Shown here one piece after another: positions 48,174-57,233 of a stretch of 64,000 bases of DNA. Below the pieces are notes generated by a model, which saw nothing but the letters and a program-made list of their open reading frames with translations, was not told the DNA's origin and ran no database searches. Position 1 is the first letter of the stretch; the number at the start of each line of letters is the position of its first letter. A program made the translations under genes and the position numbers. The DNA comes from an uncultured Oscillospiraceae bacterium (lineage in GTDB: Bacteria; Bacillota; Clostridia; Oscillospirales; Ruminococcaceae): NCBI GenBank assembly GCA_949737515.1, contig CATJCP010000191.1, forward strand, positions 1-64,000, read 5' to 3'.

Positions 48174-49040
48174 TTACTGGATGGCCTTGCCCATGGCAGC
48201 GATGGGGTCAACCCAGTTTCCATCCTGTTTCAGTCCGAAGTGGATGTGCTCCTCCAGGGAAATCTCCGAAAGGATGGAACCGACCACTCCGATGGTGTCC
48301 TCAATGCGGACAGTGTCCCCCTGCTTTACCGCAACGGCGGGGTCAAGGCCGCTGGTGACGGAGGTCAGTCCCCCGGCATGGGAGATCTCCACCACAGTCC
48401 CCCACATGGGGTCGTGGTAGACCCGGGATACAACCCCGTCGGCAATGGCGCGGACCGGGGAGCCCTTATCGGCACGAATGTCAATGCCGTCATGGGTTCG
48501 CCATTCCCCCAGAGTGACATTGCGCACCAGTTCGCCCTGGGAATAGTTACCAAACACCTCGCCGTCAATGGGCATGGTGAAAGCCAGGGGCTCCTGTGTA
48601 GCAAAAAGGGCCTCGTCAACGGCAATATCCTCCACCGGAACGGCCACATCCTGGAGCTCACCCTCAGCCTCGTCAACAACCTCTGCTGAGGCGACTTCCT
48701 CGTCGGTGATATTTTCAATCACAGGGGAGCTGCTGACCGCAGAACTTGCAGAAGACGCCGCCTGACTGACAGAGGGTCCCGCCTGGGATGCTTGAGAACC
48801 CAAAGAACGGGATGAGGCCGGCCCGCTGGACGAGCTGATCCGGGACGTGCTGCCAGACGACCGGGATATTTGGGAACTGCTGATTTGGGAACTGCCATCC
48901 TCCAAGATTGCGTTTTGGGTGGAATCGATGGCGACCCAAGCCGCCGTCGCCGTACCAATCAAACATACGGCTAACGCCACATAAAACCCTTTCCCAGAGA
49001 GAAAACGGGAGAATTTGCTGTCGTGGTTCTGATTATCCAT
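48174..49040 (-). CDS. spoIIQ: SpoIIQ-like M23 peptidase-domain membrane protein
   Basis: A 288-residue protein with a short cytoplasmic N terminus, one helix (GFYVALAVCLIGTATAAWVA), a Ser-rich linker (~50-105) and an extracytoplasmic LytM/M23 domain. EWRTHDGIDIRADKGSPV has the HxxxD zinc site and EEHIHFGLKQDG the HxH pair, so the metal ligands are intact, as in Clostridial SpoIIQ and unlike the Bacillus protein. SpoIIQ is made in the forespore and joins SpoIIIAH across the engulfment space. No spoIID or spoIIIA genes are nearby, so a general M23 endopeptidase is the alternative. Confidence 0.75.
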   Translation of the reverse strand: MDNQNHDSKFSRFLSGKGFYVALAVCLIGTATAAWVAIDSTQNAILEDGSSQISSSQISRSSGSTSRISSSSGPASSRSLGSQASQAGPSVSQAASSASSAVSSSPVIENITDEEVASAEVVDEAEGELQDVAVPVEDIAVDEALFATQEPLAFTMPIDGEVFGNYSQGELVRNVTLGEWRTHDGIDIRADKGSPVRAIADGVVSRVYHDPMWGTVVEISHAGGLTSVTSGLDPAVAVKQGDTVRIEDTIGVVGSILSEISLEEHIHFGLKQDGNWVDPIAAMGKAIQ

Positions 49041-49174: not shown

Positions 49175-50236
49175 CTAACGGCCCGGCGCCGGAAAGGGAA
49201 TTGCGTCCTGTCCAAAAATCTCCCCATACCGCTTCAAAATGGTTTCGTTGGAATAGGAGTTGTATCCATCCAGGGCATCCTGCAGCCTTTGAAAGTCCAG
49301 CCGTGCAGACACCACATGGCCCTTGCCGTCCGCTGGGGCCTCTGCGATTACACCGTGCTCCCCCTTTGCGCTGGGGTAGGGTCCATAGATCCCCGCATGG
49401 TCGTTGAGCCGTTCCCCGGTCACATACCTTCCAACCATTGCCGACCGAACGCAGAATACGCCCCATTCAAAGGCCCTGGCGGCAATGGTCCCCATAGAGC
49501 GGAACTTATCCGGCCTGCCCCGATAGGCGGCAGAAAAGGCCACCATATCCGCCCCGGAGAGAGAGGCGATCTTAAAGGGCTCACAGTACTCGTCGTCCTG
49601 TCCCACCAGCATCGCCAGACCGCCCAGAGGGGTTTCCGCCACCTGAACGGTCTCCCCGCCCACCATTCCCATATCCAGTTCCTCGCCGGAGGGGAACAGC
49701 TTATCCTGCCAGATGACCTCTTTCCCAGAGGGATCGTAAAGGAAAGCACGGTTTCTCAGCGCATCGTCCTCATAAAGGTAGATGCTTCCCGCCGCAATGT
49801 ACACCCGGTGGGCAGCAGCCAACTGGGAAAAAAGGGTGCTGTACACCTCATAGAAGTAATCGATCAGCGCATCAGAAACCTCCTCCATAGCCTCCGCCTT
49901 TTCCTCCTGCACGGCCCCCTTCAGGCGGTTGCGGACGCTGGAATAAAGGGGAACCAGGGAGAGGCTGGAAAAACCCATCCCCTCCGGAAAAACCACCAGC
50001 TGGGCCCCGCCCTTGACTGCTTCCTCCACATATTCGTTGACATCCGCCACATAGTCCCGCAGGTTTTCATAGGTTTTCAGCTCGTACTGCACTGCCGCAA
50101 CCTTAACGGCGCGGCGGTCAATAAAGCCCATATTGGAAGAGCGCTGTATCCCCAAAGATTCCACCGCCTTCTGGATCTTCTTCTGCGTCACGGTGATCGA
50201 CGCCAAAAACGCCGACATCTGAAGTGACATATCCAT
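49175..50236 (-). CDS. Nitrilase-fold protein lacking the catalytic cysteine
   Basis: A 353-residue member of the carbon-nitrogen hydrolase superfamily with a ~45-residue N-terminal extension. The Glu (QLVVFPEGMG) and Lys (VIWQDKLFPSGEE) of the Glu-Lys-Cys triad are kept. However, the nucleophile position, normally xICYDxxFPE, reads MLVGQDDEYCEP: Cys is Gly and the following Pro is Cys. Catalysis by the usual route should be impossible unless the displaced Cys is used. AGGGGGA lies 7 nt before the ATG. It starts 12 nt after a second nitrilase-like gene that is even more degenerate, so the pair forms an operon. It may bind an amide or act as a scaffold. Confidence 0.82.
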   Translation of the reverse strand: MDMSLQMSAFLASITVTQKKIQKAVESLGIQRSSNMGFIDRRAVKVAAVQYELKTYENLRDYVADVNEYVEEAVKGGAQLVVFPEGMGFSSLSLVPLYSSVRNRLKGAVQEEKAEAMEEVSDALIDYFYEVYSTLFSQLAAAHRVYIAAGSIYLYEDDALRNRAFLYDPSGKEVIWQDKLFPSGEELDMGMVGGETVQVAETPLGGLAMLVGQDDEYCEPFKIASLSGADMVAFSAAYRGRPDKFRSMGTIAARAFEWGVFCVRSAMVGRYVTGERLNDHAGIYGPYPSAKGEHGVIAEAPADGKGHVVSARLDFQRLQDALDGYNSYSNETILKRYGEIFGQDAIPFPAPGR

Positions 50237-50248
50237 GGCTATTTCCCC

Positions 50249-50947
50249 CTACTTTTCCAAAAGATTCCGGTTGTGGTGCAGGCAGCCGCACCCCAAAAGG
50301 TCGTCCATCAGCGCATGGCGGAGGATAGATGCATCCTCCCAGTCAAATTCAACTGCCTGATCCCTGCCAGAAGGATAGGCGAGAAAACCGCTGCCGTCTT
50401 CCGTCAGCCCCGGCGGACACACCACTGCCGACGAAAAGGGGGTGGTGTGGACAATGTGGACCCGGTTTGCCGCCGCCGCGCTTCTGATCCCAAAGAGGAT
50501 CCTGTCATCGTGAAAGTCCACCATAGGGAACATCTGGCTGGATATGATAAAATCGCATTCGTTGAAAATCGCCAGGCGCAGGACCTCCGGATGATATATG
50601 TCAACATCTACTGCCAAAAATATCTTTCCCAAGGGCGTTGAAATAATTTCTACCTCGTCATAGGGCTCCAGCTCGTCCAGCCAGCGCAGATTGATGTGGG
50701 TCGCCTGCTGGACTCCCATCATCTCCCCATCGGGGGAGAACAGCGCCATACACAGCCTATTCCCATCCTGGTATAATCCAGTGGCAAGATGTACCTTATA
50801 TTTTTGCGCATATCGCTGGCAGGAGGTGAGAAACAGCTCCGAAAGATCCGGGGGAACGACCGACTCGCCGTTTTTAAATACAACCAAATGACAGCCCTTC
50901 TCCTCCAAAGGCGTAAATGGCTTCACTAAACAGACTTTCAGGTTCAC
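50249..50947 (-). CDS. Nitrilase-fold pseudoenzyme lacking Glu, Lys and Cys
   Basis: A 232-residue protein that aligns along its length with the nitrilase fold, but all three catalytic positions are changed. HLVVFKNGESV stands where xLVVxPEx is expected, GVQQATHIN replaces the YRKTHL lysine, and FLAVDVDIYHPEVLR replaces xxICYDxxFPE (Cys to Asp). Structural residues, including DIYHPEVLR, remain, so the gene is under selection and not random decay. It is intact, starts with GTG (AAGGAAG 7 nt upstream) and lies first in a two-gene operon with the other pseudo-nitrilase. A heteromer is likely. Confidence 0.72.
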   Translation of the reverse strand: MNLKVCLVKPFTPLEEKGCHLVVFKNGESVVPPDLSELFLTSCQRYAQKYKVHLATGLYQDGNRLCMALFSPDGEMMGVQQATHINLRWLDELEPYDEVEIISTPLGKIFLAVDVDIYHPEVLRLAIFNECDFIISSQMFPMVDFHDDRILFGIRSAAAANRVHIVHTTPFSSAVVCPPGLTEDGSGFLAYPSGRDQAVEFDWEDASILRHALMDDLLGCGCLHHNRNLLEK

Positions 50948-51791
50948 AGGTTCACTTCCTTTTCAATTCCGGTAAATCATGTATCATGCTCATATGCCAA
51001 TATGTCCGGCTTATGCAGGCGGTTCCGTCTATTGTGGCCATGGGATTATTATATCGCAAAATCAGACACAATACAAATATTCTTTTTAAAAAAGACACAG
51101 GATATCTGGGTAGGATGGCGTTATGCAATTGACCGGTTATTGGTGTAAGAAAGTAAAAGTCACATTTTTTTCATGATTTCTCCCTATTTCCCCCAAATTT
51201 CCAACATCATTACATATTGTAAAGGATTCAATAGTTATCAACAATTTCCACAGACTTATCAACCGACAAAAAGGATTTTACCAGAGATCAGTTGAATACA
51301 GTCGGTTTTTCCCGCCGTCGAAAGTGTGTTCTGAATGTTGAATTTTCGTCGATTAAAGAGGTTTATACAAATAGTAAATCTATTTCATAAAGAGTTACAA
51401 ACAATATCAACTGAATTTTCAACCATAAAAGGGGGATTTCCTCTGGTTTTAGCGGAGAAGAGGGATGTTTTCCACAATTTAAGAGAATATCTGCTGCAGG
51501 AGAGCGAAAAGCATACAAGGATACATTGATATACAAAAAAAGAGCGATCCGCCGAAGCGAACCGCCAATAAAAAGAAGGAGAAAATGAAAAAATGGTTAA
51601 AAAGAAGGGGATTGACTGAAAACATCACTGTCTTCATTTATTATTATACCAGATTTTCCGTAAATAATTGTTAAGAAAATATGAACAGAAGAATGTTTGC
51701 CAATGATTCACAGCAAAAAGGGTCTGAAACGGGAAAAAAACAGCTAAATCAACAATAGCGGGACAAAAAAAGCGGTTCCGGCCGGCAAAGG
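50948..51791. other. AT-rich non-coding stretch with DnaA-box-like sites
   Basis: No recognisable gene in 844 bases. Between 51235 and 51476 there are several sequences close to the DnaA box: TTATCAACA (51235), ATTTCCACA (51244), TTATCAACC (51256) and TTTTCCACA (51468), in very AT-rich DNA. A 29-codon ORF (51585-51674, MKKWLKRRGLTENITVFIYY start) has AAGGAG, but only 3 nt before its ATG. A 64-codon + ORF (51335-51529) lacks an SD. All three are weak. Confidence 0.4.
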
Positions 51792-52253
51792 TCAAGCCCG
51801 GAGGCCTTGAAAAAACTGTTCCAGCAGCTGGGAGCACTCCTGTTCCAAAACAGGGGCGGTGATGGCGGTTTGATGGGGAAGCTCCAAAGCCAACAGATTG
51901 ATCAGCGATCCGCAACAGCCCCCCTTGGGATCAAAGGCGCCGTAGACCAGCCGCTGGATTCGGGCGTTTACAATAGCTCCAGCGCACATGGGACAGGGCT
52001 CCAAAGTGACATAGAGGGAGCAACCAGTCAGCCGCCAACTGTTTAAGGCGCGGCTGGCCTCCTGGATGGCGATGAGTTCGGCATGGGCCAGAGGGGAACG
52101 TAAAACTTCCCTTTGATTGTAGCCCCGCCCGATGATCTGGCCTTCCCTGACCACCACCGCGCCTACTGGAATTTCCCCCATGCAGCCGGCCTGGCGGGCA
52201 AGCTCCAGGGCAGAACGCATAAAGGACTCATCCTCTGCGGTGCGGAAAAACAT
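51792..52253 (-). CDS. tadA: tRNA-specific adenosine-34 deaminase
   Basis: A 153-residue zinc enzyme that converts the wobble adenosine of tRNA-Arg(ACG) to inosine. The active site is PLAHAELIAIQEA (HAE) and LEPCPMCAGAIVNARI (PCxxC), with VYGAFDPKGGCCGS following. Length and motifs match TadA. I use the ATG at 52253, with AAAGGGGG 8 nt upstream, instead of the track GTG three codons earlier, which touches the SD. It lies 18 nt after the CPBP protease gene on the same strand and is probably co-transcribed with it. Confidence 0.95.
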   Translation of the reverse strand: MFFRTAEDESFMRSALELARQAGCMGEIPVGAVVVREGQIIGRGYNQREVLRSPLAHAELIAIQEASRALNSWRLTGCSLYVTLEPCPMCAGAIVNARIQRLVYGAFDPKGGCCGSLINLLALELPHQTAITAPVLEQECSQLLEQFFQGLRA

Positions 52254-52271
52254 CGACGGCACCCCCTTTGT

Positions 52272-53345
52272 TCAGTACAGCGAGGAGATGTTGAGAACCG
52301 CCATGACACCGTAAATTGCGCAAACCGCCAGCATGCCGCCGCTGAAAAAGAAGGCCTTCAGCTTGGCGGGCTCGTTTAACAGGGTCTGGGACCGCTTGAT
52401 GCGAAACATGTCCCGGCGGGTGCAGGTGAGATATACCAGGGAGACCAGCCCCAGGAGCAGATACAGAATATTGACAAGGGAATCGGTGAGGAGCATCCAT
52501 TCGTAAGGGACAATGGAATAGAGCTCATTGAGAAAAATGCTCATGCCATTATAACAAAAGTGGACAATAATCCCGGTCCAGAGGGAACCGGTGCGCACCA
52601 CAAAATAGCTGATGCACAAACCGACAGCCAAGGCGATGGGGAAGACGATAATGTTGCCATGGGCGGCCGCAAACAGGACAGAGGAGATCAAGATGGCAAA
52701 ACTGTCCCCAAACCGGCGCAGAGAATGGAGGATGATTCCTCGGAATATAAACTCCTCCAAAAAAGCCGGGAGCAGGACAGAATTGACCAGATACAGGATC
52801 GTGGTGGTGCGGCCAGCAGGCATTGGCTCCACATTGCCCGGGGCAAAGAGGCCAATATTGGACAAAACAGCCTGTATGACGGAGCTGCTGGCAGAGGCCA
52901 CAGTAGAGGTTCCCAGACAGATAAACACTGCCGGAAGCACAATGGAAAGCTCTGGCATCCGCAGGGGAACGGCACGCCTGACAGGGATATGGATGCTGGC
53001 GGCATAGATGGCAAAGGGAATCCCCATGGCCAAGATAGTGGTAAAAAAAGTAATGCCCTGGTAAAGGGTGTCCGGCAGGAAGGAGCCGCTGTTAAAGTAA
53101 CGGAACTGGGGAAAATAGACGGTGATCAGGGAGGCCATCAGGCTGGGCAGAACGGCGGCCAGGGCCAGGTAGCCGATAAACGCAATGCCGATGGAGTTGG
53201 CACAGCGGCGCAGGGAATGACGTTCCCGAATGACTGCGGGAAGAGGGGTAAAGCCCAGTCCATGGACATAGGTGTATTCATGAGGATTGTAGACATGGGG
53301 GGCGGGTTCAGCAGAGGCGGAGGGATCATAATGGTCATTGTACAT
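52272..53345 (-). CDS. CPBP-family intramembrane metalloprotease
   Basis: A 357-residue membrane protein. A ~55-residue cytoplasmic N terminus rich in Pro, Tyr and His (ASAEPAPHVYNPHEYTYVHG) precedes about eight helices. The CPBP (CAAX protease and bacteriocin-processing) signatures are FLEEFIFRGIIL (motif 1, two Glu and Arg), VLFAAAHGN (motif 2 His) and WTGIIVHFCYNGM (motif 3 His and Asn). Such proteins cleave substrates in the membrane or give bacteriocin immunity; the target here is unknown. AGGTGA lies 7 nt before the ATG. Confidence 0.9.
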   Translation of the reverse strand: MYNDHYDPSASAEPAPHVYNPHEYTYVHGLGFTPLPAVIRERHSLRRCANSIGIAFIGYLALAAVLPSLMASLITVYFPQFRYFNSGSFLPDTLYQGITFFTTILAMGIPFAIYAASIHIPVRRAVPLRMPELSIVLPAVFICLGTSTVASASSSVIQAVLSNIGLFAPGNVEPMPAGRTTTILYLVNSVLLPAFLEEFIFRGIILHSLRRFGDSFAILISSVLFAAAHGNIIVFPIALAVGLCISYFVVRTGSLWTGIIVHFCYNGMSIFLNELYSIVPYEWMLLTDSLVNILYLLLGLVSLVYLTCTRRDMFRIKRSQTLLNEPAKLKAFFFSGGMLAVCAIYGVMAVLNISSLY

Positions 53346-53615: not shown

Positions 53616-56600
53616 TCAATACCCGATCCTCTTCAGATTTTGGGGGATGACAACAATGTTGTTGGCCCTGGTGATCTCATGGAGGTTGTTTTCCGGGTCA
53701 ATTTCTACTGTCCATCCCGCCAGATCCTGGGGCAGCCCGTAAACGGGAATGGGAACCTCCCAGTGGATGGGGAAAAGCTGCTCGGGAGCTGGCAGCCCCC
53801 GGATGGGAGCGGTTCTCACAATTTCACCCTGAGGATTGCGCAAAGCGACAACGGTATCAGCGGACTCCTTGGCTCCCAAGCTGTGGATCCTGACCTGGAG
53901 CCCATGAGGCATCATTGTCAGGTCCTCCTCAGTGATCCCCAGGTCACACCGCTCAAAGTAGGGGGTGCCCTCTTTTTTCAGTTTAAGGCTCAGAATGGTG
54001 TAGACCTTTGGCGGGAAGGTAACTGTCACCGGCAGTTCCCGCTCAAAGGCAACATCCCGAGAGAAGATCTCCTTGTCCGGCAGATCGTCTCCATCGGTAT
54101 CGACGCCTTGGATAAAGGTCCAGGTCCCCGGCAGAATCTCCCCACCGATCACGTCTGCAGTAATGGGCTTATCGGAGATATTAAAGGCCACGATCTTGAT
54201 CTCCTGATCACAGCAGTAGGGAACAACCACCGCCAGCTGTTCCACTTCATCATCAGTGTGGAACTTCCAGGAGATGCCGTTTTCCGGATAGTAGCAGTAG
54301 AAACGGGTGTTGTACATCCCACCCATGCGGTCCGCCTGGATATCGAACATGTTGTAGGTAATCCGGTCAATCCAGGGATGGCCTAAGGTATTGATGTATT
54401 CCCGGTTCCAGGCTCCCTCCACCATCCAACTGTACCGGTCTGCCAGCTTATCTTTGTCGGTGACCTCCCGGCTCAGGCGTTCATAGCTGGGGCGAGGCGG
54501 GATGATATCCTTATACATCCGGTTGCCGGTAAGACGGTAGGCAGGCATGAGGATGGACTCCGCCCCATGGGAACGACCCTTCTTGGGGTCCAGCTCCTCA
54601 TCGGTCTCGTAGACGATGTAGTGATGAAGAACGCCGTCGTGGTAGTGGGCGGCCAAGCCGTCCGCCAGCTCCAGGAGTATTTTTTTCAGGATAGGGGTTC
54701 CGTTAAACCGGGCCAAGGTTACGCAGGGGGAAAGGGCATAGAAGGAAACCTGATCGGTCACGCCCCAAGGCCATTCGGTGGCCATTTTTGCCCCATTGTA
54801 GTAGGAAGACCTGATGTGCCGGTGCCCTGCGCAGTTGACCCCTGTGATCCACCAGAGGGCGCGGCTGGTCTCCATGGCCTTTTCCAGATATTTGGGGTTG
54901 GAGGGATCCAGACATAGACACTGGTTGACGGAAATCAGCCCCTCCTCTGAGGAGTGGAGCTGGTCTGTCTGAAGGGAGGGCAGACCATTGGTAAACATCC
55001 CCTGGTCATAGAAAGCGTCGCAGTTGCGGAACAGGGAGCGTTTGACCTTTTCCGGCTTGATGCCCATAGCGGCGCCAGAAGCCCAGATGGTGGTAAAATC
55101 CCCGTCGTCGGAGAGGCCGCCGCCCAACTCGCCGTTTTCGATCTGCCGCTCATCGATAAAGAAGTCCAGCAGGCGGCGCATATATCCCATAAACTCGCAC
55201 TGCCGGAAGGCCCAAAGGGGCACATCTTCCGGGCAGGGGGTGGGGTTCCAATGGGGCTTGAACTTATCCCCCCGGAATTCCTGAACATATTTTTTGGTGG
55301 TGTTAAAGTAATCGTTGTAATAGAAGCGGGCAATCTCATTTTCCGGGTCGTATTCCAGCACATCCATCAGGTCGGCGTACAGCCGGTTGAACATGTCAAA
55401 TTCTTTGTGGCGGGGCCCCTCCTCCAGAATATTGGCATAGTTGTCCCGGACCTGGGTCACGCGGTCGGCGATGTGCTCCTTCAGGGCCTCTTCCGCCGGC
55501 TTCATCACCAGGCGCAGGGAAGCTCCCTCCAAAGCCCCAGGGGTAAAACTTACTGACGAACAGGAAATGATAAGATAAAGGCAGCGGTCCTTGGGCAGGA
55601 TACGGTCCCGGGTGTCAAACCACAGCACCGGCTTCTCACCGGCCCGGACAGTAAAGTTGAAGTGGGCCAGGTTGCGGTAATACCAAAGGGGATCCCGGAT
55701 CTGCACCGAAAGGCAGGCGTCCTCCGGCAGGGGAGGAAGGGAAAGCTCTATCCCGTCCAGACCCAGGGAGGGATCATACTCGTAGGGGACGGCAATGTTC
55801 ATAATTGGGAAGCCGCCGTCCGGGTCCAGCTCCGGGGCGGGGAGACGGTCAGGAGCCGTCCCCTCGGGAAGGGCCGTCATAATGTGGCGCTCATAGAGGG
55901 GAAACCTTCCGTTGATAAAACGGCGCAGCTCCCCTATTTCGACCCTATCCCCCTGATACAGCCCCGGGTAAAGGGTATAGGAGCGAGAGGGGGACGACGT
56001 TGGGGCACCCCCTTCTTTCAGATAAAATACGCTCAAATCCCCGATAGGCTCCTCCTGTACCTGGTTGGTAAAGCGAATACGCCTGCCGGCATGGTTTTGG
56101 ACCTGATGAAAGCTCCGCTCCCTCCCCTGGGGGCGGTCAAAAAGGGACTCTAAGGGCTGCCCGTTTTCGTCAACCACCTCCATCCTGCCCCAGGCGGAAC
56201 CGCTGATCTCCACATGGTTCCAAGGCTCCTCCGGCAGATGGAAGGTAATGGCCTTTCCGGACAGGGAGTAGCAGTCCCAATCGGGCAGCATAAAGTAATC
56301 GCTGCGGCCTTTCAGCTTGGATCGATTGTACACGCCTGGCCAGGTGGTCTCCCGGATGCCGTCGCAGCCCTTCCACCACCACCGCTTTAAATCATATGCA
56401 TCATGGATTTCCACTTTGCGGACACTGGCCCTTTCAGAGGGCAGCAGAGGGGGGAGCAGTCCAGGGTTATCCCAGCCGTTGCGCTGGAGCCATTCTTGGC
56501 AAAAAACCGGATCGTTCAGGCTTATTGTCAGTTTGGAAAGGTTTTGAGGGAACCGGCCCTGGGAGAGGGTCTGAACCTGCTCATCGTCCAGCATCCGGTC

Positions 56601-57233
56601 AAAGATGGAGATATGGGCGATGTCCCCGCCCCGGATATAGTTGTAGGCGCTGGAGACGTTCCAGGTCCCTACAATGCGGGAATGGGGACCGAACTGGTCC
56701 AATCCAGTGCTGTAGACCCCGGGGCGCTCCTCACAGGCAGCCAGACGGCCGTTTATGTACAGCTTGATCCCATAGGTTTCATCCCAGGCCACAGAGAGAA
56801 AAGTCCACTGGTTGGGGGCCGGGAAGGGATCAACTTTGGCGGATACCCGGGCACGGGACAGATTGATATCAGTGATAAACGCCTCAAAGCCGCTGCCGTT
56901 GTAATCCACCCGCAGCCAAACCTGCTCCCAGCTGGAATGGTCCGCAAAGGACACCCGGAAGATGGGGAACTCGGTGGGACCGACGGGGTAACGGGAGCGC
57001 CAGAAAAAACTGAGGGTTCCCCGCTGGGCATAAATGTTGCCGGGGGCCTTATAGGCGAACCTCTGGCGATCGTCGCATTCAAAGAACTGGCCCAGCTTGG
57101 GGTCGGGGCGGATTTCAACGCCCCCGATAAAGGTGGTATCCGGCCGGCCGGAGGCCAGGTCTGCGGTAAAGCCCCCAGCCCCAGAGGCATAGAACAGCAG
57201 TCCCTCCGGTTTGGAGGCGGTATATTCAAACAT
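53616..57233 (-). CDS. Very large LamG/CARDB-type protein, possible cytoplasmic glycan-active enzyme
   Basis: A 1205-residue protein with no signal peptide, no membrane helix and no LPxTG or dockerin. Residues ~60-240 form a LamG/concanavalin-like jelly roll (YAQRGTLSFFWRSR, GIKLYINGRLAAC, GGDIAHISIFDRML). The middle (~250-560) looks like further beta domains (PWNHVEISGSAWGRM). Residues ~580-980 are helical with WAFRQCEFMGYMRRLLDFF, NGELGGGLSDDGDF and YSWMVEGAWNREYINTLGHP, suggestive of an (alpha/alpha) barrel as in glycan lyases or glucuronyl hydrolases. The C terminus (~1095-1200) looks like a CARDB domain (IDPENNLHEITRANNIVVI). AAAGGA lies 6-7 nt before the ATG. The activity cannot be assigned with confidence. 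Confidence 0.65.
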   Translation of the reverse strand: MFEYTASKPEGLLFYASGAGGFTADLASGRPDTTFIGGVEIRPDPKLGQFFECDDRQRFAYKAPGNIYAQRGTLSFFWRSRYPVGPTEFPIFRVSFADHSSWEQVWLRVDYNGSGFEAFITDINLSRARVSAKVDPFPAPNQWTFLSVAWDETYGIKLYINGRLAACEERPGVYSTGLDQFGPHSRIVGTWNVSSAYNYIRGGDIAHISIFDRMLDDEQVQTLSQGRFPQNLSKLTISLNDPVFCQEWLQRNGWDNPGLLPPLLPSERASVRKVEIHDAYDLKRWWWKGCDGIRETTWPGVYNRSKLKGRSDYFMLPDWDCYSLSGKAITFHLPEEPWNHVEISGSAWGRMEVVDENGQPLESLFDRPQGRERSFHQVQNHAGRRIRFTNQVQEEPIGDLSVFYLKEGGAPTSSPSRSYTLYPGLYQGDRVEIGELRRFINGRFPLYERHIMTALPEGTAPDRLPAPELDPDGGFPIMNIAVPYEYDPSLGLDGIELSLPPLPEDACLSVQIRDPLWYYRNLAHFNFTVRAGEKPVLWFDTRDRILPKDRCLYLIISCSSVSFTPGALEGASLRLVMKPAEEALKEHIADRVTQVRDNYANILEEGPRHKEFDMFNRLYADLMDVLEYDPENEIARFYYNDYFNTTKKYVQEFRGDKFKPHWNPTPCPEDVPLWAFRQCEFMGYMRRLLDFFIDERQIENGELGGGLSDDGDFTTIWASGAAMGIKPEKVKRSLFRNCDAFYDQGMFTNGLPSLQTDQLHSSEEGLISVNQCLCLDPSNPKYLEKAMETSRALWWITGVNCAGHRHIRSSYYNGAKMATEWPWGVTDQVSFYALSPCVTLARFNGTPILKKILLELADGLAAHYHDGVLHHYIVYETDEELDPKKGRSHGAESILMPAYRLTGNRMYKDIIPPRPSYERLSREVTDKDKLADRYSWMVEGAWNREYINTLGHPWIDRITYNMFDIQADRMGGMYNTRFYCYYPENGISWKFHTDDEVEQLAVVVPYCCDQEIKIVAFNISDKPITADVIGGEILPGTWTFIQGVDTDGDDLPDKEIFSRDVAFERELPVTVTFPPKVYTILSLKLKKEGTPYFERCDLGITEEDLTMMPHGLQVRIHSLGAKESADTVVALRNPQGEIVRTAPIRGLPAPEQLFPIHWEVPIPVYGLPQDLAGWTVEIDPENNLHEITRANNIVVIPQNLKRIGY

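Follow-up and report, generated by a model that had tools for sequence, protein, structure and literature searches.

Two adjacent proteins assigned to the nitrilase fold and lacking the catalytic cysteine in an uncultured Oscillospiraceae bacterium

Introduction

Enzymes of the nitrilase superfamily perform their chemistry using a catalytic triad (PMC3537687). Two neighboring genes, here called A and B, were predicted from the DNA letters alone to encode nitrilase-fold proteins that both lack the Cys of this triad. They are located in a 64,000-nucleotide stretch from an uncultured Oscillospiraceae bacterium (assembly GCA_949737515.1, contig CATJCP010000191.1, positions 1 to 64,000 of the forward strand), which is referred to as the window. 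Is the loss of the Cys real, how did such a pair arise, and what could it do without the usual chemistry? We addressed these questions by comparing the pair with solved structures, with the genomes of relatives, and with related loci across the phylum.

Results

Identification of the gene pair

Genes A and B are adjacent on the minus strand of the window in the order B-A, with 12 bases between them. The genes and the codons at their former active-site positions are listed below.

49175..50236, minus strand: gene A (353 aa); nitrilase fold by its CN_hydrolase match, Gly212 in place of the Cys
49601..49603, minus strand: codon of A Gly212, catalytic Cys position by structure-profile alignment (Cys in 0/23 family members)
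49700..49702, minus strand: codon of A Lys179, catalytic Lys position, retained (Lys in 21/23 of the family)
49982..49984, minus strand: codon of A Glu85, catalytic Glu position (Glu present in the window and in 16/23 of the family)
50249..50947, minus strand: gene B (232 aa); pseudo-subunit, shortened, probably of the nitrilase fold
50600..50602, minus strand: codon of B Asp116, two residues past the Cys position (Asp in 23/23; conservation rank 2 in B)
50606..50608, minus strand: codon of B Asp114, catalytic Cys position, aligned to the Cys of 6mg6 (Asp in 22/23)
50702..50704, minus strand: codon of B Ala82, catalytic Lys position (Ala in 22/23)

A was assigned to the nitrilase fold by its match to the Pfam CN_hydrolase profile (2.3e-18, 66.9 bits, cut-off 23.2). 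The protein has an N-terminal extension of approximately 40 residues and a long insertion C-terminal to the Glu position. B begins with a GTG codon preceded by AGGAAG. Only 22 residues, versus 42, separate its start from the strand that formerly carried the Glu, indicating that the first helix is missing. The window's B scored 17.9 bits with the same Pfam profile (0.0021), below the cut-off, and the B of an intermediate genome described below (G294), which is of the same type, exceeded it (28.4 bits).

When single A or B proteins were compared with solved structures using phmmer, no match was obtained; profiles of the two families did match. The A family profile matched 32 solved sequences, nearly all of them nitrilase-fold, including Nit2 (2w1v, 1.3e-14), and in the alignments to 2w1v and 6ypa the catalytic Lys corresponded to Lys179 and the catalytic Cys to Gly212. 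The B family profile matched the nitrilase-fold structure 6mg6 (3.5e-4), with Ala82 at the Lys and Asp114 at the Cys. As the window's B alone was below the Pfam cut-off, its probable assignment to the nitrilase fold is based on this profile match. AlphaFold models of A and B, computed with three homologues as input, were uninformative (pLDDT 36 and 38). Both reading frames are at the predicted coordinates on the minus strand, and their alignments to solved structures agree that neither carries the catalytic Cys.

The pair shares its fold profile, its motif positions and the Lys of A with the nitrilase superfamily (Pfam PF00795; Nit2, PDB 2w1v; PH0642, PDB 1j31). It differs in that A and B lack the catalytic Cys, and in that B has none of the triad residues and no first helix. 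Apolipoprotein N-acyltransferase (Lnt) also contains a nitrilase-fold domain, but neither A nor B of the window matched Lnt.

Conservation of the former active sites

We searched 100 and then 346 genomes of relatives for the pair. B and A were adjacent on the same strand in 23 genomes, namely that of the window and 22 others, all of the window's own family (f1). The pair is patchy, as 30 of the 346 relatives had an A-profile match and a few of these are ordinary nitrilases. It can also be broken: in genus g51, G053 has B without A, and G900 has A without an adjacent B.

The catalytic Cys was consistently absent from the f1 homologues (0/23 for A and 0/22 for B), and no close orthologue with an intact Cys was found in this family. 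Across the A alignment (23 proteins), the Cys column contained Gly (18), Glu (3) or Ala (2), the Lys column contained Lys in 21, and the Glu column contained Glu (16), His (3), Gln (2), Lys (1) or Ala (1). The original prediction that A keeps Glu and Lys with Gly at the Cys position therefore stands for Lys179 and Gly212 but not for Glu85, which is present in the window's protein and not conserved in the family. The B alignment consisted of 22 f1 proteins and the B of G294. Here, the Cys column contained Asp in 22 and Gly in one, and the Lys column contained Ala in 22 and Gly in one. The predicted absence of Glu, Lys and Cys from B was borne out, with the refinement that the replacements are non-random. 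A complete Glu-Lys-Cys triad is thus absent family-wide, A being without Cys and B without all three residues.

The former active-site columns of B are among its most conserved, with Asp116 at rank 2 and Asp114 at rank 8 of 237. Lys179 and Asp214 of A rank 17 and 20 of 357. These columns argue that the old pockets may still serve a purpose, of which binding would be the simplest. Lys179 of A and the conserved Asp that follows it would fit residual chemistry as well. We consider that there is a small but real chance that the pair is still catalytic, with a different nucleophile or acid-base chemistry in a shared site composed of Lys179 and Asp214 of A (21/23 and 20/23) and Asp114-x-Asp116 of B (22/23 and 23/23). 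Against such a site, Glu85 of A is free to drift, the former Cys of A is replaced by Gly, Glu or Ala, and the nucleophile has not been consistently replaced by another polar residue; an Asp at the place of Asp116 is moreover a normal part of the nitrilase motif. New chemistry on the nitrilase fold, one of the functions originally suggested, gained no positive support.

Promoter and genomic neighborhood

Two features flanking the pair are relevant to its regulation and context.

51048..51053, minus strand: TATAAT, -10 box of a promoter of the sigma-A type 5' of gene B (TATAAT in 14/22 genomes)
48174..49040, minus strand: SpoIIQ-like M23 peptidase, downstream neighbor (NCBIfam SpoIIQ 3.5e-16, far below its cut-off)

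TATAAT was located upstream of B in 14 of the 22 genomes, compared with 1.4 expected in shuffled sequence (maximum 4). A sigma-70 scanner gave no promoter upstream of B because the -35 box is weak. A simple consensus for sigma-F, sigma-G or sigma-E was detected in none of the 22 upstream regions. In G001, G003 and G029, too, the SpoIIQ-like gene directly follows A.

Genes for SpoIIQ-like proteins, spoVAC-AD-AE, gpr, spoIIP and ypeB are frequent neighbors of the pair, which would be expected if it were a sporulation component, in a forespore or spore-coat complex. In addition to the four genomes in which the SpoIIQ-like gene adjoins A, spoVAC-AD adjoins or is near the pair in G007, G055, G053, G035, G842, G932 and G756, YpeB adjoins it in G009, and SpoVAD is present in nearly all hosts of the pair. 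However, SpoVAD is present in 92 of 100 relatives, most of which lack the pair, and the neighbors appear to belong to a shared synteny block in which tadA and the CPBP gene are adjacent also in genomes without the pair. Because of the sigma-A-type promoters and this general synteny, we did not class the pair as sporulation genes. A role in sporulation is unlikely, and the neighborhood is best explained by shared synteny. The SpoIIQ-like gene is a matter of synteny only and is outside the pair's system.

Other observations were made around the pair. A CPBP intramembrane protease homologue and tadA (window 51792-53345, minus strand) are adjacent across much of the order, and a functional link of the pair to them was rejected, since they are adjacent across the order without the pair. 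A 1205-aa protein encoded at 53616-57233 (minus strand) contains a Laminin_G_3 domain and no other Pfam family, and is conserved in G001. In G055 (L053:8172-9469) and G842 (L132:3060-4382), spoVAC is divergent beside the pair, and the shared intergenic region might couple the expression of both in these genomes.

A phylum-wide tandem in which one partner keeps the triad

When the B profile was applied to the whole class, nitrilase pairs in tandem came to light in other families. In these pairs, A carries the full triad (FPE, QxK and CMDATYFE) and the partner carries none of it. For the phylum, a profile was built from six Cys-bearing A proteins and used on an even sample of 359 genomes. A Cys-bearing relative of A was found in 68 of them, about one in five. 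As this profile also matched the Cys-less A of the window (3.6e-49), Cys-less A proteins elsewhere would have shown up.

We read 60 of these loci. B directly preceded A in 52, the two were fused in four, and A was alone in three; L204 has a probable B-A fusion interrupted by the contig end. The full triad was present in 59 of 60 A proteins outside f1 and in 0 of 56 B proteins, in which the Lys position was occupied by Gln in 55. The exception among the A proteins (L227:5483-6658, family f183) keeps Glu and Lys and has Gly at the Cys position, and may represent an independent loss of catalysis. The fusion proteins are 732-833 aa long.

L200:5122-7320: B-A fusion, B-type domain followed by an A-type domain with the full triad
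L202:5777-8278: B-A fusion, same arrangement
L207:5415-7625: B-A fusion, same arrangement
L220:4576-7020: B-A fusion, same arrangement

In the fused B domains of L200, L202 and L207, a Cys is present (ICED or VCED), and Glu and Lys are absent.

The tandem (for example L171, L090 and L200) shares with the window homologous A and B in the order B-A. It differs in that its A keeps Glu-Lys-Cys whereas the f1 A lacks the Cys, and in that it is found in a cassette and is sometimes fused, whereas the window pair has no GH125-like gene. The fusions elsewhere and the near-strict co-conservation make a physical B-A heteromer likely in the window's species. That the adjacent pseudoenzymes form an obligate pair is supported by their adjacency in 23 f1 genomes and by the four fusions in related loci.

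A regulatory role could also be directed at a third protein, if the pair acted on another active nitrilase of the same cell through mixed oligomers. The window's genome encodes three other CN_hydrolase proteins, nitrilases oligomerize, and heteromeric nitrilases exist in plants (PMC3537687). However, no active nitrilase gene is located beside the pair in f1 and B is paired with its own A throughout the phylum, and we regard such cross-regulation as improbable.

When the neighboring genes were clustered, a GH125-like hydrolase gene was identified in 35 of the 68 loci and a gene for an MFS_2 sugar-type transporter in 20 of the 68; for both, the median distance to the pair was one gene. The cassette GH125-like hydrolase-B-A-MFS_2 was found in L171, L172, L173, L090 and approximately 30 other loci, and a PIG-L deacetylase gene in six (L216, L217, L219, L222, L224 and L225). 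This cassette is possibly an undescribed glycan-amide pathway. The window's genome has no GH125-like gene; including it, seven of the eight f1 pair genomes tested lacked the gene, and the eighth had a weak partial match on another contig.

Intermediates and the order of losses

Two genomes combine a B of the f1 type with a Cys-bearing A. In G1222 (L176), B scored 213 bits with the f1 profile versus 64 with the ordinary B profile and has the motifs DID and QQATH, and GH125-like and MFS_2 genes are present. In G294 (L092), B has the motif DVD, A has the motif CMDATYFE, and the GH125-like gene is absent. The A of G294 weakly matches the Lnt profile TIGR00546 (2.3e-6, below the cut-off).

An IQ-TREE phylogeny of 30 A proteins separated those with and without Cys by a single branch (support 100/99), and a FastTree phylogeny of 90 sequences grouped all 23 f1 A proteins together. 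When midpoint-rooted, f1 was not nested within the Cys-bearing group in either tree. As these trees are only midpoint-rooted, the direction of loss is deduced from the near-universal triad elsewhere and from the intermediates. G1222 and G294 indicate that B died before A: B was dead first, was then reshaped with loss of its first helix, and A was dead last. By this comparison, the f1 pair is a derived form of the common pair of an active A and a pseudoenzyme B, rather than a de novo invention of two dead subunits.

Selection on the pair

The pN/pS values among three congeneric genomes, left uncorrected since synonymous sites were saturated for corrected dN/dS, were 0.17-0.21 for A and 0.19-0.27 for B. 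Those of the flanking SpoIIQ, TadA and CPBP genes were at the same level (0.16-0.29). Judged by these ratios, the pair is maintained by purifying selection. The genome was assembled as a fragmented draft (448 contigs, 85% complete), but the chance of a sequencing error, a frameshift or an ordinary nitrilase operon in the course of decay is negligible: the catalytic loss is neither error nor decay, because all 23 family homologues lack the same residues (Cys in all 23 A and 22 B) and pN/pS is as low as in the neighboring genes.

Discussion

We read homology, the residue losses and their order, co-conservation, the fusions elsewhere, purifying selection and the promoter type from sequence. Taken as a whole, these data are best explained if A and B are two subunits of an obligate nitrilase-fold heteromer that is now a non-hydrolytic binding or regulatory complex, and we consider this explanation probable. 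In the ancestral state, still represented across the phylum, A would have acted as an amidase or nitrilase with a Glu-Lys-Cys triad, and B would have been its dedicated pseudo-subunit, shaping, stabilizing or regulating it. This ancestral pair would have shared a glycan-related cassette with genes for a GH125-like hydrolase and a sugar-type transporter. In f1, the first helix of B would have been lost, and Asp and Ala would have become fixed where B once had the Cys and the Lys. The Cys of A would have been lost after these changes in B, and the cassette partners would have vanished from most of the genomes tested. The remaining pair would be cytosolic and constitutively expressed, with amide hydrolysis gone, and would bind a small ligand or a protein via its old pockets and interface. 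Since the Cys has been lost in both A and B, the usual covalent chemistry of the superfamily should be impossible in f1; we infer from this loss and from the conserved pockets that hydrolysis has given way to a binding role.

The Poaceae nitrilases NIT4A and NIT4B are two nitrilase-fold paralogues that form an obligate heteromer and hydrolyze nitriles (PMC3537687, PMC5154151). The window pair resembles them as two nitrilase-fold paralogues in a predicted heteromer. In contrast to this active plant complex, both members of the window pair lack the catalytic Cys, and they are encoded in a bacterial operon.

No description of a bacterial pseudo-nitrilase pair or of a GH125-nitrilase cassette was found in the open-access literature, subscription journals being mostly outside the scope of the search. 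The parent system of GH125-like hydrolase, pseudo-nitrilase, nitrilase and transporter appears to be undescribed, and a new non-catalytic function of the f1 pair is a credible proposal. We would give about an even chance to a more specific version of it: the pair would be a nitrilase-fold heterodimer devoid of any catalysis, would have a new function in ligand sensing or protein regulation, and would have evolved from a widespread and undescribed bacterial glycan-amide system of an enzyme plus a pseudo-subunit, its two subunits losing catalysis one after the other.

Nitrilase-fold proteins are usually treated and annotated as hydrolases, and the label "carbon-nitrogen hydrolase" would mislead for A. 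The loci compared here would form a natural series. At one end is an active enzyme accompanied by its dedicated pseudo-subunit, and at the other a double pseudoenzyme still under selection. Pairs of the G1222 and G294 type would be living intermediates of this series, and make the transition from an enzyme complex to a non-catalytic complex testable. The parent cassette, whose nitrilase occurs in about one-fifth of the sampled phylum genomes, may encode a new glycan-amide pathway.
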